From: Lactobacillus panisapium
GTDB lineage: Bacteria > Bacillota > Bacilli > Lactobacillales > Lactobacillaceae
DNA length: 64,000 nt
Direction of reading: 5' to 3'
Assembly (NCBI RefSeq): GCF_019469265.1
Contig: NZ_CP048268.1
Span: forward strand, 1-64,000
The notes below the pieces were generated by a model. That model was not told the origin of the DNA and did no database searches. It saw only the letters and a list, made by a program, of their open reading frames with translations. Numbering within the stretch: the stretch's first letter is position 1; every line of letters begins with the position of its first letter. This document shows positions 34,078-52,086 of this stretch, piece by piece. Both the position numbers and the translations under genes were made by a program.

Positions 34078-34242
34078 CAAAAGGGCTGTACAAAAAGTAG
34101 CGGGATAATGATCAAAATGTATCAGTTACTATAATAAGCAAAGAATCAAAGTAAATTAAAAAGACTAACTCCGATTGAATATCGGGCATTAGTCCTTGGT
34201 TAAAATTTATTAAACTGTCCTAATCTTGGGGTTCACATCAAT
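34078..34242 (+). mobile_element. IS3-family transposase relic, copy 2
   Basis: About 165 bases nearly identical to 30770-30933. It ends with codons for RLTPIEYRALVLG and a stop at 34203, then the right IS end TAAACTGTCCTAATCTTGGG. A one-base deletion breaks the frame upstream. It stops immediately beside the Rgg half-site at 34242, suggesting the insertion removed the other half of that site. Confidence 0.75.
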
Positions 34243-34263
34243 ATCAAATACGACTTTTTTGAT
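34241..34263 (-). promoter_or_regulatory. Truncated Rgg-type site after rgg1
   Basis: On the minus strand AAAAAAGTCGTATTTGAT lies about 18 bases past the rgg1 stop, directly against the IS3 relic. It matches one arm of the inverted repeats at 48538 and 50047. Confidence 0.55.
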
Positions 34264-34277
34264 TTTCTCATGTTTAT

Positions 34278-35126
34278 CTACAATGATTTATCTAGAATTT
34301 TTTTCATGTCTTTGCTAAACTCTGGCATACCCAACGAACTAATGTGATCAATTGCCATTCGAGCTTTATTTACATACTCATCCTTTTTTTCATAGTGATA
34401 ATTCACTATATTTTTAAGTATAAAAATGCAGTTTTTATAAAAAAACAGATTCGGTTTAGTAATAATTTGATCCGCTGCTTGAATAAAGAATTCTGTTTCT
34501 TTATATCTACTTTCCCTGATACACATAATTAACATGTTTATCGCTATTCCTAATATTGTTTCTTGAACATTCGAACTTCCCGAATAGCGAAATTGCGTGA
34601 TTACTCGCCGACTTATTAACAAATTGCTGTCAAGATCATAGAACGCCATCAAGTTACAATACAAATCTAATTTATTTTCGTCAAAATTAGAAATATTAAA
34701 AATTTTTTCTTTCAACTTATTTCGTTCTTTTTCATCAAAATCTTCTACGTGATTTCCAACTAAAGCGATAAGTGCATCTATAAATAGCAGCTGATCTTCT
34801 TTATCAGCTACTTCGCTATTTGCAATAACATTTTTAATATCCTTAAGCTGATCCTTATCATTATGATAAAACGCTTCATTCATTGCCTCGCCAATATCTC
34901 TGTTTTCATCATATCTTACTTTATCTTCTTGACTAAGCTTGCTAAAAAATTCCCACAGCTTAATGTTATTAGCATGCAATAATGCAATTAGATCCTCGGC
35001 TGTAATTCTGTGCTGATCTTTTTCAACTTTTGAATAATATGATGTGCTAATCGTATTACCAGCCCATTCTTTTTGAGTTTTCAATCTCTCAATTCGATAT
35101 TGCTTTAGCAATTGTCCTATTGTCAT
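34278..35126 (-). CDS. Rgg family transcriptional regulator (rgg1)
   Basis: A 282-residue protein. The N-terminal helix-turn-helix (GQLLKQYRIERLKTQKEWAG, then YYSKVEKDQHRITAEDL) is followed by a helical repeat domain typical of peptide-binding RRNPP regulators. It is paralogous along its whole length to the protein at 48587-49435, which has the same length. AGGAGGATC precedes the ATG. It is divergent from an MFS exporter, with tandem operator-like repeats between. A possible peptide gene downstream has been lost to an IS3 relic. Confidence 0.85.
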   Translation of the reverse strand: MTIGQLLKQYRIERLKTQKEWAGNTISTSYYSKVEKDQHRITAEDLIALLHANNIKLWEFFSKLSQEDKVRYDENRDIGEAMNEAFYHNDKDQLKDIKNVIANSEVADKEDQLLFIDALIALVGNHVEDFDEKERNKLKEKIFNISNFDENKLDLYCNLMAFYDLDSNLLISRRVITQFRYSGSSNVQETILGIAINMLIMCIRESRYKETEFFIQAADQIITKPNLFFYKNCIFILKNIVNYHYEKKDEYVNKARMAIDHISSLGMPEFSKDMKKILDKSL

Positions 35127-35145: not shown

Positions 35146-35187
35146 CATTCAAATTTGGCGTTTAACATTCAAATACGACATTTTTGC
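35146..35187 (+). promoter_or_regulatory. Tandem operator repeats between rgg1 and the MFS gene
   Basis: CATTCAAATTTGGCGTTT at 35146 and CATTCAAATACGACATTT at 35166 repeat with an exact 20-base period, two helical turns. The second is followed about 21 bases later by TATAAC (35209-35214), a plausible -10 of the MFS gene. The CAAATACGAC core matches the other Rgg-type sites. Confidence 0.62.
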
Positions 35188-35252: not shown

Positions 35253-36509
35253 ATGGACATTTTTATAAAGAATAAGGATTATAGAAAATTTACAATCGCC
35301 AGTTTCTTATCTGGTGCAGGCAATATTTTGTTTTACTTAGCACTTATTACTTACGCAAGTAAATTAAGAAATTACGCCTTGGCTATTTCATTGATTTCAA
35401 TTTCAGAATCAGTACCGCAAATTTTTCAAGTTTTTAGTGGATATTTAGCTGATCGTACAAAAAACAAATTCAAGCTAATGGTTTGGTTAGCCGCCATACG
35501 CTTTGGGCTCTATCTAATTGTCGGATTACTTTTCGCTAGTGGATTTGCTGGCTGGAACCTAGTTTTAGCTGTTATTGGCATTAACCTAGTATCGGATATT
35601 GCTGGCTCATACTCTGGCGGCCTTCAAATGCCTCTAGTTGTTAACATTGTTGGAGATGATGAAGTTGCCGAAGCTGAAGGATTTGTTAGTGGGATCAACG
35701 GTATTATCAATATGATTGCACAATTCATTGGTTCTGGTTTATTACTTTTCATGTCTTATTCCAGTCTGGCAATCTTCAATGCCTTAACATTTCTAGCGGC
35801 AGGTGCCCTTTTTGCCAGTGTCGGCCGTAATTATTACAAGACTCATCCTCAAAAAGGAACTACTTCAGTTAATGAAGAGGGGTTCTTTAAAACAATTGCT
35901 TTATCATTCAAACAAGTAAAAAAGGCAAAGGGATTGTTATCAGTCGTTCTAGTAATTGCGTTATTAAATGGAGTTTTAGGGACAATTGAACCTTTAATTT
36001 CAATCGTAATCGCCGGTAATAAGTCTTCTATGGTCATTGGAACATACAGTTTTACGATTGCCCTAATAGGAGGTGTAATGACTGCTAGTATGGCACTTGG
36101 TAGTATTGTAGGCACAAAATTATTCAAGAATATGTCATTATTCACTATCGCAATTATTTCAACAGCTTTAAGTATCGCAGTTATTGGTACAATGTTTATT
36201 AAAAATATTTTCATTTGTCTGCCAATCATGGCAAGCCTTGCAATATTTATTGGTACGGCTAGCCCTAAATTAACACAGTGGCTTGTTGAAGCAGTTGACC
36301 AAAACATTTTGTCATCAACTATGGGAATGCTTAACACAATTTTAGTAGTGACTGCGCCAGTTATGACAACTATTTTTACTACAATTACTGCTTCGTTCGG
36401 TATTACTATCGCATTAACACTATTATGTGTAACTTGTTTAATTATTTTAGCAACAATAGTTGGGGTAGTCTATTCTACCAATAAAAATGTAGCTATTAAT
36501 GAAGCATAG
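35253..36509 (+). CDS. MFS transporter, probable exporter
   Basis: A 418-residue protein with 12 predicted transmembrane helices. The loop 2-3 motif GYLADRTKNKFKLM is the MFS hallmark, and the order resembles MDR-type efflux proteins. AGGAG lies upstream of the ATG. It is divergent from rgg1 and shares its operator region, so it is likely Rgg-controlled. Export of a peptide or drug is possible; no substrate can be assigned. A terminator follows at 36665. Confidence 0.85.
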   Translation: MDIFIKNKDYRKFTIASFLSGAGNILFYLALITYASKLRNYALAISLISISESVPQIFQVFSGYLADRTKNKFKLMVWLAAIRFGLYLIVGLLFASGFAGWNLVLAVIGINLVSDIAGSYSGGLQMPLVVNIVGDDEVAEAEGFVSGINGIINMIAQFIGSGLLLFMSYSSLAIFNALTFLAAGALFASVGRNYYKTHPQKGTTSVNEEGFFKTIALSFKQVKKAKGLLSVVLVIALLNGVLGTIEPLISIVIAGNKSSMVIGTYSFTIALIGGVMTASMALGSIVGTKLFKNMSLFTIAIISTALSIAVIGTMFIKNIFICLPIMASLAIFIGTASPKLTQWLVEAVDQNILSSTMGMLNTILVVTAPVMTTIFTTITASFGITIALTLLCVTCLIILATIVGVVYSTNKNVAINEA

Positions 36510-42879: not shown

Positions 42880-42918
42880 TGATTTAATATGATCAACTTA
42901 AGTCAAGAGGAAAAAATT

Positions 42919-44499
42919 ATGTCATTAAAGTTCGCAAATAAAGGGAAACTGGCACTGTATGTTCTGTTAGCAACAATTAGTGCTTGTGGCAATGTTGTTA
43001 TTGCTTATATTACCAAAATTATGTTGAATAGTGCGCAATATCATTATGGGACGCTTAAGCAGTTAGTTTTAATTGCGCTTACTGGAGCTGGGATCTTAAT
43101 TGTAATTATGTTTACTAATTTCGCTTATCGCTACCTTCGCTGTGATATTGTACGTGACATCAACGTTGAGCTTAAGGACAAAACCATTAGCTACATTATT
43201 CAGCAGCAATCCGATTCGCAAAAAGATGGTTTAAACTTAATGACTAATGATTTAAAGCAAATCGAAACCTCGAAGATCACTAATGAATTAATGATTATTT
43301 CTGAGGCGCTTGCTTTCGCGATTTCAATTATTGTTGGCTTACTTAATTCTTGGGTTCTAACTTTAATTTTCGTCATTGCAACGGCTATTCCTGGCTTTAT
43401 CCAAAAATTTTTCATTAAGAGTATTCAGGAAAAATCTGCCGAATGGGAAAAACAAAATGCAGAATACACTCAAGCTGTATCAGATGCTATTAATGGCTCA
43501 AAAACCGCGATGCTTTATGATGTGCAAATTCCAGTTGTTTCCTATGTGATTAAGCAAGCCAAGCAAATGGAAGATGCCTTGCGTTCGTTGAATTATGCTC
43601 AAGGGGCGGTTACAACCGTCATTATAACTGTTGCAGACATTTTTAGTTTTATCATTCCGTTTTTGGTTGGGGCTATTCTGATGTTTAACGGGCAAATTGG
43701 TGCTGGTACTTTAGTCATGATTGTCCAATTGTCTAATGACTTCATTAATCCCGTTACGATGATTTTTGATCAGATTAATCAAATTCGATCTACTAAGCCA
43801 ATGTGGGACAAAGTTGAAAAAGCACTGGCAATTAAAGCAATCAGTTCGGAAAATAAGGCCGCACAATCTTTTACTCAATTGGACGTTGAGAATCTTGCCT
43901 ATGAGCAAAATAGTAAATTGCTTTTTGCTAACGTTAACTTTTCGCTAAAGTCTGGTGAAAAAATCCTGCTAATGGCACCTAGTGGCTGGGGTAAAACGAC
44001 TTTACTACGTTTATTGGTAGGGCAAATTTCTCCAAGTAAGGGGACAATCAAAATCGATCAAGAGTCGATTAACGGTAATTGGGCCAAAGCTCACGATTAC
44101 TTTGGCTACATTAATCAGAAACCGTTTATTTTCGACCGCGATTTAAAATTCAATGTTACTTTAGGCAAGAACGTCACTGATCAGCAACTTGAGGATGCTA
44201 TCGAAGAAGCTGGCCTGGCTAAACTGGTGAAGGAAAAAGGACTAAATTATGCTGTGGGACAAAATGGCAGTAACTTATCTGGCGGTCAAATTCAAAGAAT
44301 AGAAATTGCTCGTGCGCTGCTTGCCAAGCGGCCAATTCTGTTAGCAGATGAAGCAACTAGTGCATTAGATGCCAAACTTACTTTACAAATTCATCAAACC
44401 TTACTCAATAATCCTAAAGTTGCTGTAATTGAAGTTGCACATAAAATTTCTGAGCAAGAAAAAGCAATGTTTAATCGCATTATTAAACTAGGGAGTTAG
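42919..44499 (+). CDS. ABC transporter, fused membrane and ATPase half (A)
   Basis: A 526-residue half-transporter with six transmembrane helices (about 1-300) and a C-terminal ATPase. Walker A is APSGWGKTT near residue 353, the signature LSGGQIQRIEIARAL, Walker B ILLADEATSALD with the catalytic Glu, and the H-loop EVAHKIS. Residues look functional. ATG 42919 follows AAGAGGAAA. It is homologous to the protein at 45718; the two could form a heterodimer exporting a peptide or lipid-like substrate. It is divergent from rgg3. Confidence 0.88.
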   Translation: MSLKFANKGKLALYVLLATISACGNVVIAYITKIMLNSAQYHYGTLKQLVLIALTGAGILIVIMFTNFAYRYLRCDIVRDINVELKDKTISYIIQQQSDSQKDGLNLMTNDLKQIETSKITNELMIISEALAFAISIIVGLLNSWVLTLIFVIATAIPGFIQKFFIKSIQEKSAEWEKQNAEYTQAVSDAINGSKTAMLYDVQIPVVSYVIKQAKQMEDALRSLNYAQGAVTTVIITVADIFSFIIPFLVGAILMFNGQIGAGTLVMIVQLSNDFINPVTMIFDQINQIRSTKPMWDKVEKALAIKAISSENKAAQSFTQLDVENLAYEQNSKLLFANVNFSLKSGEKILLMAPSGWGKTTLLRLLVGQISPSKGTIKIDQESINGNWAKAHDYFGYINQKPFIFDRDLKFNVTLGKNVTDQQLEDAIEEAGLAKLVKEKGLNYAVGQNGSNLSGGQIQRIEIARALLAKRPILLADEATSALDAKLTLQIHQTLLNNPKVAVIEVAHKISEQEKAMFNRIIKLGS

Positions 44500-45717: not shown

Positions 45718-47301
45718 ATGATTTACCACAATTACTCACATTTTAGATTCTTTTGGTTAAATATTTTTGGCCTGATTTATAGTACTGAAAACATTATTAT
45801 GGCGTATATTGTCGGCAGTTTGACTAATATGGCTGCTAAAAGACAATTCGTTGCCTTACCATCGCTGATCGGCCAAATCATTGTTGCATTGGTGATCGTG
45901 TTAGCTTCTGGCTTAATGTTTAATTACCTTAAGACTGATGCGATTAAGCAAGTCAACGTCAAATTGCGTACTAAAGTATTAAAAGGAATGTTGCTAAATA
46001 ATCGAGAAGATAGCAGTGATCTGGGCTTTTTAACTAATGACTTTAAGTTGCTTGAAACCAACCGTTATGAGGCTGAAATTCAAATTTTGATTTATACTTA
46101 CACGGTTGTTTTGGCACTGGGCTATGCACTTTACTTAAATTGGTTTGTTACCTTGATTTACTTGGTAGGATCGCTCTTGCCAACAATTGCTTCAAGCTTT
46201 TTTCAAAAATCGATTCAAAAAGCTTCGGGTGACTGGACCGCGGCTAGTGACAAGTATGTAAGTCAAACCAAAAATACCTTAGCTGGAACTGGTACTTTTA
46301 ACTTATATGGCAAACAAGATAATGCTGTCAAACAAAATAAGCGTGTGGTTGAACGGCTAGAAGAAAAACTGGCCAAAATGAACTTACTTAATGAGAATAC
46401 CAATACTTATTTAAATATTATTGCAATTGGTGGCACGTTTTTACTTCCATTTGCAATTGGTACAGGACTAGTAATTAAAGGCCATATTACGTTAGGAGCT
46501 CTTTTTGCAATAACGCAGCTGTCTAACTCATTTGTGAATCCTATTTTACAGATTTTAAATGAACGAAATAACTTATCGACAACAAAGGGAATAGTTAAGA
46601 AAATTAAGCAGTATATTGCTAAAAGTGAGCAGAAGGAAAATAGTGCAAACCTCCCTAAAAACTTTGCTGAGCTAAAGGTGCAGGAGCTTGCACTCGTACG
46701 CCAGGATAAAAAACTGGCAGATCACATCAACCTTACGGTTAAAAAAGGTCAAAAGATTGCAGTAATTGGCCCTTCAGGTTCAGGTAAATCAACGATGCTG
46801 CAATACTTGATGTATGGCGACTATGGTAAAGCTGAGAAAGTACTGCTTAATGAGAAAGACGCTGCGGCCGGCAATTTTACAAAGTTATTTTCATATTCTA
46901 GCCAAAGTGCTGTGATTTTTGCCGATACGCTTTGGTTTAATCTGACTCTCGGAGAAACTTTTGCTCACGACGAGGTTAAACAGGTTTGTCAGAATCTTGG
47001 TCTAGGACAGCTAATTAAGGAAAAAGGTTTTGACTATCAGTTAGGGGATAATGCGGATCAACTGTCAGGTGGACAGTTGTCACGAATTGAACTTGCACGG
47101 GCCATTTTAGCTGGCCGGCCAGTTATGCTGCTGGATGAGGTCAATGCATCGCTTGATAAGCCAACTTCAAAAATGATTCATGATTATTTATTTAACACTG
47201 ACTTTACTTTTATTGAGGTAATTCACCATTATGAGCCTGAAGAACTAAGGCGTTATGATGTGGTGATTGATTTTGACAACTACATAGACAAATTAAAATA
47301 A
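45718..47301 (+). CDS. ABC transporter, fused membrane and ATPase half (B)
   Basis: A 527-residue half-transporter homologous to the one at 42919 (shared FNYLKTDAIKQVNVKLR-like helix and LTNDFKLLETN loop). Walker A is GPSGSGKST near residue 351, the signature LSGGQLSRIELARAIL, Walker B VMLLDEVNASLD and the H-loop EVIHHYE. GGAG precedes the ATG. It presumably pairs with half A, although 1.2 kb and an inverted gene now separate them. No leader-peptidase domain is present. Confidence 0.87.
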   Translation: MIYHNYSHFRFFWLNIFGLIYSTENIIMAYIVGSLTNMAAKRQFVALPSLIGQIIVALVIVLASGLMFNYLKTDAIKQVNVKLRTKVLKGMLLNNREDSSDLGFLTNDFKLLETNRYEAEIQILIYTYTVVLALGYALYLNWFVTLIYLVGSLLPTIASSFFQKSIQKASGDWTAASDKYVSQTKNTLAGTGTFNLYGKQDNAVKQNKRVVERLEEKLAKMNLLNENTNTYLNIIAIGGTFLLPFAIGTGLVIKGHITLGALFAITQLSNSFVNPILQILNERNNLSTTKGIVKKIKQYIAKSEQKENSANLPKNFAELKVQELALVRQDKKLADHINLTVKKGQKIAVIGPSGSGKSTMLQYLMYGDYGKAEKVLLNEKDAAAGNFTKLFSYSSQSAVIFADTLWFNLTLGETFAHDEVKQVCQNLGLGQLIKEKGFDYQLGDNADQLSGGQLSRIELARAILAGRPVMLLDEVNASLDKPTSKMIHDYLFNTDFTFIEVIHHYEPEELRRYDVVIDFDNYIDKLK

Positions 47302-47414: not shown

Positions 47415-47458
47415 ATGCCATAAAAAAACCACCAGACTTTCTGGTGGTTTTTTATGCA
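47415..47458. terminator. Bidirectional terminator
   Basis: AACCACCAG and CTGGTGGTT form a nine-pair stem with A and T runs on either side, extended by ATGC..GCAT pairing. It serves the ABC gene and the convergent small membrane protein. Confidence 0.88.
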
Positions 47459-47703
47459 TGATATTTTTTCGAAAAATGGTCAATACATTTTTGATAAATC
47501 ATTGGTGCAGGGAAAATAAATACGAAAAGATATGCGAAACATATCAGATCATCCGGAAGTTTGCTAAAGATACCTATACTATGAATAAAATTTAGTATTT
47601 GAGTTTTAAACTCACCTAGCAAAAACATAATCAATACAAGCCAAAAGAAATATATGATAAATAGCAAACGCTTATTTTTTTTGAATTCATTTTTATCTTT
47701 CAT
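47452..47703 (-). CDS. Small membrane protein, candidate immunity protein
   Basis: An 83-residue protein with a basic N-terminus (KDKNEFKKNKR), a hydrophobic helix at about 13-31, a second at about 55-72, and a basic end KKYHA. The size and topology resemble bacteriocin immunity proteins, but no family is recognised. It is 42 bases downstream of the secreted Gly/Ala-rich protein on the same strand, hence the suggestion. Confidence 0.5.
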   Translation of the reverse strand: MKDKNEFKKNKRLLFIIYFFWLVLIMFLLGEFKTQILNFIHSIGIFSKLPDDLICFAYLFVFIFPAPMIYQKCIDHFSKKYHA

Positions 47704-47745: not shown

Positions 47746-48279
47746 TTATTGATATCCCCAACTAATTGCGGAACCTTTATTACTAAATCTTACGTAAATT
47801 CCTCTGTCACAAGCTTTACTTCCAGCACTATTAGCAATAGAAGTTATAGTTGCTGCTACGGTTCCTGCAAGGTAAGGATGTCCAGCTGCAGTCAATGCGG
47901 CTCCGATAGCCGTAGCAACAGCTGCAGATCCACCATAAACTGCTAACTTAACAATAGCACTGTTTACATAAACGGTAAAGCCATGCTTATTGGTTTTAAT
48001 ATACGTACCACCACGCCGCATCATATCTTGCATTAAAGCAGCTTGATAATCTTCTTTACCTAAAATACTTTTTACATCATAGCCTTTGGCTTCAAGTGTA
48101 TCAAAAATTTCTTTGTTAGAAATTGATACGACTTGATCATCATTATTGGATTGTTTAACATTTGTAATAGTATCAGCATGTACAACCTGGGTTGTTAAAA
48201 TACTATTTCCTAGTGTTGATGCTACTGGACTCAATGCTAATGTAGTCAATCCTGCAATCACTGCTTTTTTAAATTTCAT
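47746..48279 (-). CDS. Secreted Gly/Ala-rich bacteriocin-like protein
   Basis: A 177-residue protein with a Sec signal peptide (KFKKAVIAGLTTLALSPVAS, cleavage near VVHA-D). A soluble middle part contains RRGGTYIKTNKHGFTVYVN. The C-terminal part is a long small-residue helix region (YGGSAAVATAIGAALTAAGH, GTVAATITSIANSAGS) like a membrane-inserting glycine zipper, ending SAISWGYQ. This layout recalls large secreted bacteriocins, but I do not recognise a named family. AGAAGGAG precedes the ATG. It lies downstream of a peptide ORF and rgg2. Confidence 0.7.
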   Translation of the reverse strand: MKFKKAVIAGLTTLALSPVASTLGNSILTTQVVHADTITNVKQSNNDDQVVSISNKEIFDTLEAKGYDVKSILGKEDYQAALMQDMMRRGGTYIKTNKHGFTVYVNSAIVKLAVYGGSAAVATAIGAALTAAGHPYLAGTVAATITSIANSAGSKACDRGIYVRFSNKGSAISWGYQ

Positions 48280-48431: not shown

Positions 48432-48482
48432 TCAACAATACTTAGAAACAAGTAATATTAACTCGCGTAATAATTTAAACAT
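48432..48482 (-). CDS. 16-residue hydrophobic peptide ORF, candidate Rgg signal precursor
   Basis: The frame encodes MFKLLRELILLVSKYC. A strong ribosome binding site TAGGAG lies eight bases before the ATG. A -10-like TATACT is at 48512-48517 and a large inverted repeat at 48538-48585, immediately after rgg2. Basic N-terminus plus hydrophobic core fits a pheromone precursor of the short-hydrophobic-peptide type, though it is shorter than known examples and ends in Cys. It could also be a leader peptide for the secreted protein gene. Function is inferred from position only. Confidence 0.5.
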   Translation of the reverse strand: MFKLLRELILLVSKYC

Positions 48483-48537
48483 TTATATTTCTCCTACTAA
48501 TTTATATTTTCAGTATATTAATAATTAAATTAAAATA

Positions 48538-48585
48538 CTAAAAATGTCATATTTGATTCTCAAAAACCAAATATGACATTTTTAG
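48538..48585. promoter_or_regulatory. Inverted repeat upstream of the peptide promoter, Rgg-type site
   Basis: CTAAAAATGTCATATTTG and CAAATATGACATTTTTAG form a perfect 18-bp inverted repeat with a 12-base spacer. It lies two bases after the rgg2 stop and 20 bases upstream of the TATACT -10 on the minus strand. It could also form a terminator for rgg2. Similar half-sites are at 34242, 35166 and 50047. Confidence 0.68.
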
Positions 48586-48586
48586 T

Positions 48587-49435
48587 TTATTCATTTGCAA
48601 TTAAAAGTTCTTCTAATTCTTTACTGTAATCTGGCATGCCCGCTAGTTTGATACTTTTAATTATTATTTCTGTTTCATCTAGGTACTTTTTATTATATGT
48701 ATTCTGATATTTAACAATATTATAAAATGCTGGTACTAGCATCTTATAAAAGAAAATTGCTGGCGTTGTTTTTATTTGATCTGCATAATTGACAAATACG
48801 TCAGCTTCTTCAAAGCGTTTATTTCTAATACAAAAAATCAACATATTAATAATAATGGCTAAAATTTTTCCTTGTATTTTAACACTACTGGTTCCAATGC
48901 ACTGTTTAATTATTTTTTTAGACAGCAATAAATTACTATTCAAATCATAGAAACTCATAAAATTACAATATAGAATCAAACCATCTTCGTCGAAATTAGA
49001 AATATTAAAAACTTTCTCTTTTATTTTATTTATGGCTTCTTTACCCAACATCGTGGGATCTTTACTAATTACCGCAATATAGGCATCAATCAGCAGTAAT
49101 TCATCGCTTTTATTTGGCAATTTACTTTCTGCAACTACATCTCGTATTTGCTGTAATTCTTTTTTAGAATTTTGGTAATAAGCTTCATTTATGAGCCGAT
49201 CTATTTCCAATTCTTGTTGATGAATCAATTTATCTTTTGGACGTAACTTGCTAAAAAAATCGATTAGGGGAATTTGATTGAAATGTAGTAATTCAATTAA
49301 GTCATCGGCAGAAATTCGGCTTAGATTTTTTTCAACTTTCGCATAAAAAGAGGCACTGATCACGTCACCAGCCCATTGCTTTTGTGTTTTACACTGACTA
49401 ATCCGGTAGTCTTTTAATAATTCTCCTGTTGTCAT
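48587..49435 (-). CDS. Rgg family transcriptional regulator (rgg2)
   Basis: A 282-residue paralogue of the regulator at 34278, collinear along the whole length (GELLKDYRISQCKTQKQWAG, VFNISNFDEDGLILYCNFMSFYDL). The helix-turn-helix is at the N-terminus and the rest is the helical peptide-binding domain expected of RRNPP proteins. A GAAGGAA site precedes the ATG. It lies upstream of the peptide ORF and secreted protein gene, and pepO lies on its other side; both have matching inverted repeats at their promoters. Confidence 0.87.
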   Translation of the reverse strand: MTTGELLKDYRISQCKTQKQWAGDVISASFYAKVEKNLSRISADDLIELLHFNQIPLIDFFSKLRPKDKLIHQQELEIDRLINEAYYQNSKKELQQIRDVVAESKLPNKSDELLLIDAYIAVISKDPTMLGKEAINKIKEKVFNISNFDEDGLILYCNFMSFYDLNSNLLLSKKIIKQCIGTSSVKIQGKILAIIINMLIFCIRNKRFEEADVFVNYADQIKTTPAIFFYKMLVPAFYNIVKYQNTYNKKYLDETEIIIKSIKLAGMPDYSKELEELLIANE

Positions 49436-49603
49436 GATTATTCCTTCTAACTTTTGCTTGCTAAATGAGCCATATTTTCTTTATTATAACGAAAATATAG
49501 TTAAGTCATAGAAAAGAAGAATAAATTAATTCAAGAAGTCAGCTTAAATGACCAATAATTGATGGTCAGAATACTTACACGTAACAATGCACTTAAAAAG
49601 AAA

Positions 49604-49626
49604 AAACCACCAATGATTTTGGTGGT
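49604..49626 (-). terminator. Terminator of the small membrane protein gene at 49632
   Basis: ACCACCA and TGGTGGT with a seven-base loop, followed on the minus strand by six T. The stem resembles the one at 47427, hinting at shared ancestry. Confidence 0.82.
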
Positions 49627-49631
49627 CAAAA

Positions 49632-49841
49632 TTATTCTGCTTTTTTGGGCCATAAATAAATTAAAATCAAAATTTGAATAATAATTAATACCAAATTTAA
49701 CCAAATTGGTAAATGGCGGAAAAAGTATTGTTGAATATTACAATTAATAATATTGGTTGCAAAAAAGATATATCCTAATAATTCTATTACAACGTAACCA
49801 TAAAATAGGTTATTTCTATGCGATCTTATCCAATTTATCAT
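49632..49841 (-). CDS. Small two-helix membrane protein, candidate immunity protein
   Basis: A 69-residue protein with two hydrophobic helices (about 14-30 and 45-63) and the short polar end WPKKAE. The start MINWIRSHRNN has no strong ribosome binding site. There is no family I recognise. Its place between rgg2 and pepO and its size make an immunity or accessory role possible. Confidence 0.5.
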   Translation of the reverse strand: MINWIRSHRNNLFYGYVVIELLGYIFFATNIINCNIQQYFFRHLPIWLNLVLIIIQILILIYLWPKKAE

Positions 49842-50046
49842 GCTTTTATACCTTAAAAGAAAAAGATAACAGTTTTGACAATAGCAATGATACCCGCTAA
49901 TTTTTATTTTAATGAAATTGTGTATTCCTTATATGCTTGTAAATATTTAGTATAGCAGAAAAAATAAATTTAAATAAAAAATGGCTAACATGACAATTTT
50001 TAATCATATTAGTCATTTTTTTCTACTAATCAGAGCACGGTTTTTC

Positions 50047-50099
50047 CATAAAAAGTCGAATACGACTTTTTATGAGAATTTGCTAAATTGCTTATATAC
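50047..50099 (+). promoter_or_regulatory. pepO promoter with Rgg-type inverted repeat
   Basis: CATAAAAAGTCG and CGACTTTTTATG form a perfect 12-bp inverted repeat with a four-base spacer (50047-50074). A -10 TATACT lies at 50094-50099, 19 bases away, with no good -35, as expected for an activated promoter. The layout copies that of the peptide promoter at 48512-48585. The rest of 49842-50139 has no gene I can support. Confidence 0.68.
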
Positions 50100-50139
50100 T
50101 TAAAAGCATATTTAGAAGTTAGTGAAAAGGAGAAAATAA

Positions 50140-52086
50140 ATGATTAATTTTAATGTGCGCGGTGGCGCTGGTAATTCGACTAAAGCCGATCCTAATGTCC
50201 GGCTACAAGATAACTTTTATCTTGCTGTTAATTCACAATGGATGAAAGACAATCCAATTCCCCAGGGCGAGCCGTGGATAAATAGTTTTGATGAAATTGC
50301 TAAAAAGACGCGTGAGCGGCTAATGCAAGATTTTGAAGAATTTGCCGATGGCCAAAAAACAATTCCGGCAGTTAGGAACTTTGACAAAGCCATTGAATTT
50401 TATCGTATTGTTAAAGACTTTGCCAAAAGAGAAGAAGATGGTGCAGCTCCAATTAAAGCTGATCTAGCTTTTTTGGAAGGTTTAACTAGTATTGATGATA
50501 TTAATCAAAACCTGTCGCGACTACTACTAGATGGTAATTTGCCTTTTGGTTTTGAAGTTATGCCCGATTTTAAGGACGCGCAATTAAATGTTGTCACGTT
50601 TAATCGACATACTCTAATTTTAAATGATACCAGTTATTATGATGGAAAACGGACGGATGAATTGCTTGCAACTTGGCAAAGACAGACTACAAATTTGCTG
50701 ACAATGGCGGGGATCGAAGAAAATAAGGCACAACAATATGCAAGTGATAGTGTAAAACTAGATCGGCGGCTTGCAAAGGTCTACCAGTCTGCCCAAGATA
50801 ACGCCCAGATTGAAAACACTTATCATCCAATGAGTGTTGCAGAATTTACAAAAAAGAGTCAGAACCTTAATTTAGCCGGACTGTTAGAAGAGATGGGGCT
50901 TGAACAGACTAAATTTGTGATTGTAAGTGAACCAAAATACCTGGACAGTTTTGATAATCTATTCAATGACAAACATTTTGCCGAGCTAAAGGGGTGGCTG
51001 ATTTCACAGTTTATTAATTATAGTGCTACCTATTTGTCACGCGCCTTTAGAGCTGCCACGTTACCGCTTAGAAAAGCAATGTGGGGCATTAATGAATTGC
51101 CCGTAGATAAACAATTTGTTTACGATCAAACGACTAAATTGTTTGGAGATGTGATTGGGCAATATTATGGCCAGAAATACTTGGGCGAAAAGGCTAAGAC
51201 AATTGCAACTGAAATGGTTGAAAATATGGTCGAAGTCTATCAAGAAAGGCTGCATAATAATTCCTGGTTGTCATCTGTGACTAAAGAAAAGGCAATCAAG
51301 AAGCTGGCTACTTTAAAACTAAAAATTGGTTATCCAGAGCATATCCAGAAATTTTATGATCAATTTAAGGTGGTTCCTACGCAAGCCGGTGGTACTTTTT
51401 ACTCGAATGTCAGGGACAATCAGCGTGTTAAAATTAAAGCTAATTTTAGCAAGATAAGTCAGCCAGTTGATCATTCTATCTGGACCATGTCGGCAATTGA
51501 TGCCAATGCTTGTTACGATCCGCAAAATAACGATGTCACTTTACCGGCAATCATTTTGCAAAAGCCTTTTTATAGTTTAGATCAGGACCGCGCTGCTAAT
51601 TATGGCGGTTTCGGCACGGTGATTGGCCATGAAATTTCCCATGCTTTTGACAATAATGGTGCTCAGTTTGATGAACTGGGCAATATGAAAAATTGGTGGA
51701 CAGATAAGGACTTCGCTGAATTTAATCAGCGGGTTAAAGCAGAAATTGCTTTGTTTGATGGGGTAGAAGTTGGTTCAGTAAAATTAAACGGCAAATTGTG
51801 TGTTTCTGAAAATATTGGCGATCAAGGTGGGTTGACTGTCGCACTTGAGGCCAATAAGAAGGATGGTGGCGATGCAGCCACTTTGTTTAATAGCTATGCT
51901 CGGATTTGGGAGACCAATTCAACTACTGAATTTTTACAGTTGCTTACTTCAATTGATGTTCATGCTTTGCCTCAAGCTAGGGTAAATGTTCAAGTGCAGT
52001 GCCAAGACGAATTCTACCGGGCTTATGATGTTAACCCAACTGATGGTATGTGGCTTGAACCCGCTAAACGAGTACAGATCTGGTAA
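50140..52086 (+). CDS. pepO: M13 family oligoendopeptidase PepO
   Basis: A zinc metallopeptidase (neprilysin type) that cuts short peptides, 648 residues. The zinc site is GHEISHAFD near residue 497, with the third ligand and acid in SENIGDQGG, NNGAQFD after the HExxH, and the usual end AKRVQIW. There is no signal peptide, so it is cytoplasmic. AAAAGGAG precedes the ATG. The Rgg-type inverted repeat at its promoter links it to the neighbouring rgg2. In Streptococcus pyogenes PepO has been reported to degrade Rgg pheromones. Confidence 0.95.
   Translation: MINFNVRGGAGNSTKADPNVRLQDNFYLAVNSQWMKDNPIPQGEPWINSFDEIAKKTRERLMQDFEEFADGQKTIPAVRNFDKAIEFYRIVKDFAKREEDGAAPIKADLAFLEGLTSIDDINQNLSRLLLDGNLPFGFEVMPDFKDAQLNVVTFNRHTLILNDTSYYDGKRTDELLATWQRQTTNLLTMAGIEENKAQQYASDSVKLDRRLAKVYQSAQDNAQIENTYHPMSVAEFTKKSQNLNLAGLLEEMGLEQTKFVIVSEPKYLDSFDNLFNDKHFAELKGWLISQFINYSATYLSRAFRAATLPLRKAMWGINELPVDKQFVYDQTTKLFGDVIGQYYGQKYLGEKAKTIATEMVENMVEVYQERLHNNSWLSSVTKEKAIKKLATLKLKIGYPEHIQKFYDQFKVVPTQAGGTFYSNVRDNQRVKIKANFSKISQPVDHSIWTMSAIDANACYDPQNNDVTLPAIILQKPFYSLDQDRAANYGGFGTVIGHEISHAFDNNGAQFDELGNMKNWWTDKDFAEFNQRVKAEIALFDGVEVGSVKLNGKLCVSENIGDQGGLTVALEANKKDGGDAATLFNSYARIWETNSTTEFLQLLTSIDVHALPQARVNVQVQCQDEFYRAYDVNPTDGMWLEPAKRVQIW

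Follow-up and report, generated by a model that had tools for sequence, protein, structure and literature searches.

We analysed the first 64,000 nucleotides (hereafter the window; forward strand) of the Lactobacillus panisapium genome, a single 2.19-Mb contig (NZ_CP048268.1, assembly GCF_019469265.1). Here rgg2, a gene for an Rgg-family regulator, is flanked on one side by a 16-codon hydrophobic open reading frame (ORF) and a secreted-protein gene, and on the other by the endopeptidase gene pepO (Table 1). A sequence-only reading had described this layout, and the ORFs are as it gave them; it had further proposed that Rgg2 activates the signal peptide and pepO together in one self-limiting loop. 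Comparison of genomes (one per species; G000 is the window's own) brings out an 18-bp operator, its spacing from the -10 element, its conservation at pepO, a family of micropeptides and an operator letter that goes with the Rgg clade, and it points to a different regulator at pepO, most likely Rgg1.

The C-terminal domain of Rgg2 passes Pfam Rgg_C (46.7 bits, cut-off 27) and NCBIfam RGG_Cterm (48 bits, cut-off 36.9), as does that of Rgg1 (53.6 and 63.4 bits). HTH_3 scores 13.2 bits for Rgg2, under the cut-off of 23, and 26.2 bits for Rgg1, over it; the first 75 residues of the two proteins align gap-free. Rgg2 finds no match among PDB sequences at E 0.001, an absence that does not weaken the domain match. 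The genome holds three full Rgg2 paralogues (36–48% identity), a distant one (26%) and a fragment; the closest of these genes to rgg2 is rgg1, about 14 kb away and inside the window. Orthologues of Rgg2 at 83–85% identity are found in L. huangpiensis, L. laiwuensis, L. kullabergensis, L. kimbladii and Lactobacillus sp. W8174, which are honeybee-type lactobacilli. PepO has the Pfam M13 domains (280 and 175.9 bits), with HEISH at residue 497 and ENIGDQGG at 557. Against NF052391, the equivalog model for lactococcal PepO, it scores 579 bits, below the cut-off of 1000, and is thus a PepO relative and not the lactococcal equivalog.

Two promoters and a common 18-bp box

Both of the inverted repeats that had been claimed are real, but they are different elements. 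The peptide-side repeat (48537–48586) has perfect 19-bp arms around a 12-nt loop; none of 200 resampled sequences reaches 19, the largest value being 11. The pepO-side repeat (50047–50074) has perfect 12-bp arms and a 4-nt loop, a length reached by three of the 200, so that it is weaker when taken alone. Comparison with rgg1 and its relatives shows the common unit of the two promoters to be an 18-bp box around GTC(A/G)AATA(C/T)GAC. The peptide-side palindrome consists of two such boxes facing outward, the pepO side of a single box with symmetrical halves. At both promoters TATACT begins exactly 23 nt past the box, and the reported lack of a good -35 held up: a consensus promoter scan paired the pepO TATACT only with ATGAGA (9/12) and did not list the peptide TATACT.

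This arrangement recurs widely. Boxes flank many Lactobacillus rgg genes, often before a divergent gene for a major facilitator superfamily (MFS) protein; a position matrix, seeded with sites already seen, finds a box that exceeds the 99% null level next to 52 of 76 rgg genes. Outward box pairs lie behind 10 of 86 rgg genes with footprint starts 23–24 bp apart, which by arithmetic sets the dyad centres about two helix turns from each other. A -10-like hexamer follows 49 of 116 distinct boxes at 23 or 24 nt, 11 at other offsets (15–31 nt) and 56 not at all; such a hexamer occurs at 23 or 24 nt from 26 of 1209 control positions. The distance from box start to start codon is 77–102 nt for 36 MFS targets, 81–86 nt for nine pepO genes and 76–84 nt for four peptides of the five queried. 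Such spacing suggests the layout of an activator standing in for the -35 element. The exact core AATAYGACWTTTTT has four copies in the L. panisapium genome, all beside rgg1 or rgg2, and the copy at pepO differs from it by one mismatch.

The box is conserved before pepO. For 11 of 45 PepO ORFs in the loci examined, the 250 nt upstream contain a strong box, always 80–85 nt before the start; a twelfth is found in G029, 86 nt before the start of a gene cut by the contig end. Another 31 have no box, and three, being pieces that lack the true 5′ end, were left out. The genes judged (these 45 and the G029 piece) are fewer than all PepO matches in the genome set, and the boxes of G012 and G089, at 15.1, score just above the threshold of 14.9; the 31 boxless ones include one with a weak score (10.3), at least one that is stop-broken, and six from other genera or from distant branches of the tree. 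Near-identical orthologues are entered separately in these counts.

The box bearers form two well-supported groups, clades A and B, when 43 PepO proteins are placed in a tree. All seven testable members of clade A have the box (G000, G022, G091, G093, G029, G094 and G076, the last stop-broken and judged on its 5′ piece); an eighth, G018, is cut by a contig end and was not counted. All five of clade B have it as well (G011, G012, G013, G031 and G089), each pepO being divergent to an rgg gene with the box in between; G002, whose box lies about 240 nt from pepO in front of what remains of an MFS gene, is not among these five. The 31 boxless PepOs, including the second PepO of L. panisapium itself, fall outside both clades. 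A small gene downstream of pepO is common to the window, G022, G091, G093 and G076, and these relatives have no rgg2 there, so the box goes with pepO and not with the rgg2 neighborhood. The conservation looked for between repeat and pepO thus exists, at a fixed position in two clades and with no rgg2 alongside, and Rgg-type control of pepO is supported by comparative sequence evidence.

Operator letters and the probable regulator of pepO

A tree of 86 Rgg proteins includes an Rgg2 clade of 17 members, and all 16 of those with a box have T at the variable pyrimidine (TATGAC). Four of the five members of the Rgg1 clade have C (TACGAC), and the fifth, from G029, has GTGAC. The letter at pepO is C, as at rgg1, which tells against the claim that Rgg2 is the single regulator of both promoters. 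The letter is accompanied by residues of the helix-turn-helix (HTH): Y30 together with H39 is present in 23 of 24 C-type Rggs, and F30 in 22 of 26 T-type Rggs (not counting G029), including 7 of the 10 outside the Rgg2 clade. Within L. panisapium, Rgg1 and an Rgg encoded at 95 kb have Y30 and H39, and Rgg2 and an Rgg encoded at 2.03 Mb have F30.

Gene positions were also compared. Rgg1 orthologues of at least 86% identity occur in five genomes, three of which have a clade-A pepO (G000, G093 and G029; not G023 or G072). That of G029 (86%) has pepO directly after it, and the boxes of this genome at the MFS gene and at pepO are both AATGTGAC, a form with a two-base change that is absent from the other six testable clade-A pepO genes. 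In G093 the Rgg1 orthologue (93%) lies about 3 kb from pepO. Rgg2 orthologues of at least 68% occur in eight genomes, of which two have a clade-A pepO (G000 and G093), and in none of the seven genomes other than L. panisapium does rgg2 adjoin pepO. We therefore reject the idea that the gene order of the window is itself conserved.

The peptide unit that might be expected behind rgg1 was not detected in L. panisapium: there is no outward box, and nothing in the genome matches a 22-base stretch of the relatives' unit at up to three mismatches. Behind the Rgg1 orthologue of G023 the peptide is MNTSTFGWIIIIHF; the same stretch in G093 and G072 has no in-frame start.

Micropeptides behind rgg genes

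The peptide ORF beside rgg2, MFKLLRELILLVSKYC, is short and hydrophobic, has AGGAG ahead of its ATG, adjoins an rgg gene and has a candidate regulated promoter of its own, as judged by sequence. An Rgg2 orthologue in G097 (73%) is followed by the same double box, TATACT and ribosome site, then by the ORF MFDLLRGVIIFFPF. A DNA pattern drawn from these two peptide starts was not enriched in 75 genomes (22 matches against 54 in the reversed control); one match, MFELLRTIFIVLTNNK, was singled out only by its position behind another rgg gene, in G033. Four rgg genes of the G033 sister group were read, and three have such a peptide ORF, MLDFLRGLFIFVIF and MDRLFHSIIIVIMNNGITDNNLI among them; that of G032 has none. 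Among 3540 micro-ORFs (12–30 aa, with a ribosome site), the top two matches to the window peptide, itself excluded, are those of G033 and G097, both directly behind rgg. Similarity scores of at least 15 were obtained for 5 of 37 micro-ORFs behind rgg and for 16 of 3502 elsewhere (p 1.7e-6), some family members having been seen before this test; of the five, MSDLLRTVIIIIVHPKSNQ in G022 was found only through the ranking. The Rgg/peptide unit that had been proposed is supported by this recurrence of related peptides behind other rgg genes.

Downstream of the peptides come secreted and small membrane proteins in varying combinations. The 177-aa secreted protein of the window is rare (2 of 41 genomes, its own included); its predicted fold has a mean pLDDT (predicted local distance difference test) of 65.8, and a search of the PDB with that fold gave nothing at E 0.001 or better. 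In G010 its homologue is preceded by a similar 16-aa ORF, MDQLFRFVFLLFRKLS; a different HTH regulator, with an Rgg_C match under the cut-off, stands beside that ORF, and the scan gives no box there. On an L. helsingborgensis plasmid a homologue is again followed by a small membrane protein, and the 18.5 kb read there contain neither an rgg gene nor a box. Judged by this layout, the 177-aa protein and the small membrane protein may be a bacteriocin and its immunity protein. Two exporters of the ATP-binding cassette type are also encoded in the window (42889–44499 and 45718–47301), their best NCBIfam match being the streptosactin exporter GggC, far under cut-off.

In the five Rgg2 orthologues of 83–85% that were read (L036–L040), and likewise in one of 68% (L041), the outward box and the peptide have given way to other sequence, always at one point in the loop of the double box. 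By eye, foreign sequence starts at this point (TTTGAT.TTGA.GTGA.C...) also behind rgg1 here (34150–34260), as if an element inserted there repeatedly. A third circuit, decayed, is seen at 90.65–91.2 kb of the L. panisapium genome (L052:4650–5540), where a fragment of an rgg gene is found with the 16-codon ORF MNDSLRGTPIIIFFSE and a membrane protein of 124 aa that by eye is very like the one behind the G097 peptide.

Table 1. Positions in the window of the genes and promoter elements of the rgg1, rgg2 and pepO regions
Feature	Position	Strand	Basis or remark
C-type box behind rgg1, without outward partner and peptide gene	34242–34259	+	
rgg1, C-type HTH (Y30, H39), proposed pepO regulator	34278–35126	-	
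C-type box before MFS gene	35167–35184	+	Score 26.5
MFS transporter gene, divergent from rgg1	35253–36509	+	Pfam MFS_1 48.6 bits, cut-off 33.4
Membrane protein, 83 aa, possibly immunity-like, judged by position	47452–47703	-	56% relatives behind Rgg pairs, G010 and G033
Secreted protein, 177 aa, no known family	47746–48279	-	Homologues in G010 and L. helsingborgensis plasmid
Candidate signal peptide MFKLLRELILLVSKYC, 16 codons	48432–48482	-	ORF; relatives behind other rgg genes
-10-like TATACT, peptide promoter	48512–48517	-	23 nt after box
T-type box facing peptide gene, AATCAAATATGACATTTT	48541–48558	-	Matrix score 23.0
Second outward box, facing rgg2 end, completing the 19-bp-arm palindrome	48565–48582	+	Score 17.0
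rgg2, Rgg-family regulator, 282 aa, T-type HTH (F30, S39)	48587–49435	-	Pfam Rgg_C, NCBIfam RGG_Cterm, HTH residues
Membrane protein, 69 aa, between rgg2 and pepO, no family match	49632–49841	-	ORF; Pfam search
C-type box before pepO, AGTCGAATACGACTTTTT	50054–50071	+	Score 25.8; conserved in clade A
-10-like TATACT, pepO	50095–50100	+	23 nt after box
pepO, M13 endopeptidase, clade A	50140–52086	+	Pfam M13 domains, HEISH and ENIGDQGG, tree

Proposed wiring, alternatives and known systems

We think it rather probable that a C-type Rgg, likeliest Rgg1, activates pepO, whose product may cut signal peptides, and that rgg2 drives a separate peptide operon. Binding, activation, the identity of the Rgg at pepO and a pheromone as PepO substrate are what we infer here. 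The Rgg/micropeptide circuits of Lactobacillus would have their operator in common, a dyad of 18 bp (GTC R AATA Y GAC) 23–24 nt upstream of the -10 element, at which a bound Rgg would replace the missing -35. The window would then hold two circuits with different operator letters. Through the double box behind its own gene, the T-type Rgg2 would act on the 16-aa hydrophobic peptide, the secreted bacteriocin-like protein and the small membrane protein. The gene pepO, with its C-type box, would most likely be switched on by Rgg1, or else by a further Rgg of the C type, for instance the 95-kb one, together with the MFS transporter, which may export the leaderless peptides. PepO, apparently cytoplasmic (no signal peptide by eye, motifs intact), would limit the response by cutting signal peptides once they are imported. 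As the peptide unit behind rgg1 is missing in the window, the pepO arm may link the circuits to each other or to neighbours' signals.

Several observations weigh against this proposal. With one mismatch allowed, the core occurs 20 times in the L. panisapium genome and its reversed control also 20 times, so the pepO box rests on conservation, not rarity. A box is lacking at 24 of 76 rgg genes. G022 and G091 have a C box at pepO and only a 44% Rgg1 relative, of the 95-kb type. In G029 the operators have changed and HTH positions 30, 39 and 42 have not. Y30 occurs in 3 of the 10 T-type Rggs outside the Rgg2 clade, and the operator letter code is partly confounded by ancestry. The outward box and peptide are gone from the five Rgg2 orthologues of 83–85%. 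Because of the cases of G022, G091 and G029, the evidence reaches only as far as a C-type Rgg, most likely Rgg1.

PepO might be under Rgg control for nutrition, peptide maturation or the turnover of other peptides, and not for pheromone destruction; we regard this as a possibility of second rank. PepO is of a general endopeptidase family found in 74 of 75 genomes of the genus, and no peptide gene follows rgg1, the gene of its likely regulator, here, but the box occurs in two separate PepO clades and not in the housekeeping one; the connection with small peptides is indirect. A single self-limiting loop, with Rgg2 bound at both repeats and activating pepO along with the peptide, now seems unlikely: rgg2 is the nearest rgg gene to pepO, and the boxes are of one family with equal spacing to TATACT, but the operator letter and the synteny given above disagree with it, and pepO orthologues retain the box with no rgg2 adjoining. 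A loop through Rgg1, or cross-talk, is possible. We give little credence to a receiver-only circuit, in which Rgg1, its own peptide lost but boxes retained at the MFS gene and, going by operator type, at pepO, would hear the peptides of neighboring lactobacilli and induce PepO to destroy them as a quorum quencher. We hold it very improbable that the peptide ORF is spurious and that the repeats are explained as terminators or by chance: the double box forms a very stable hairpin (-26.7 kcal/mol, z -8.09) also picked up by a terminator scan, and the resampling result for the pepO palindrome alone would suit chance, but the distances to -10 elements and start codons are fixed, the boxes are conserved between species with a letter for each Rgg clade, and the peptide recurs behind rgg genes. 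Chance palindromes are rejected on fixed position and conservation; an additional terminator function of the double box is possible.

Rgg/SHP and RopB/SIP signalling are known in streptococci, and in S. pyogenes PepO is reported to destroy Rgg pheromones by cleaving SHP. Like the Rgg2/Rgg3-SHP systems of Streptococcus, the present one has an rgg gene beside a short hydrophobic peptide gene and no good -35; unlike them, it has the peptide behind rgg on a double box, at 14–16 aa is shorter than SHP precursors, and belongs to a genus in which many rgg genes have a box-bearing divergent MFS gene. RopB/SIP of S. pyogenes resembles it in the very short peptide with no recognisable leader beside an Rgg-family regulator; the peptides are unrelated by eye, and we know of no such operator family, nor of MFS and pepO targets, for RopB. 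In both S. pyogenes and Lactobacillus an M13 PepO is tied to Rgg signalling; the streptococcal gene is under CovRS control, and here 12 genomes have an Rgg-type box before pepO. Against this background three things look new: these 12 pepO boxes, the micropeptide layout with a double box behind rgg, and an operator that is shared across the genus and split between C and T. They give Rgg signalling in Lactobacillus an operator that can be tested, and suggest a rule of two residues by which targets may be sorted among the paralogous Rggs of a single cell. They also show a wiring that recurs, with a peptide-cutting enzyme that would itself be under an Rgg-type switch. If the signal is what PepO cuts, its turnover would belong to the circuit, and species living together could disturb each other's signals.

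Other peptides were noted behind rgg genes or boxes. The micro-ORFs MDLKDVVIIIITGK..., MSLLDVVIIIVTGK... and MKPEDVVIIVIKG, behind rgg in L139, L141 and L134, resemble the streptococcal SHP core DIIIIVGG. In G022 (L156:2980–3290) an MFxLLR-type peptide precedes a small ORF, rich in Cys and Thr and with AFTCLITCGYTEKK at its end, and then a large gene, perhaps a lanthipeptide cluster. Three Rgg-box operons look like small peptide-modification clusters (L149:4922–7113, L163:2748–4670 and L166:3940–4160): the first encodes a member of the ThiF family (135 bits in Pfam) along with a weak match to M16-type peptidases, and in the others micro-ORFs behind the boxes end in GPAPYIGTW (L163) and GPPPYIGTW (L166).

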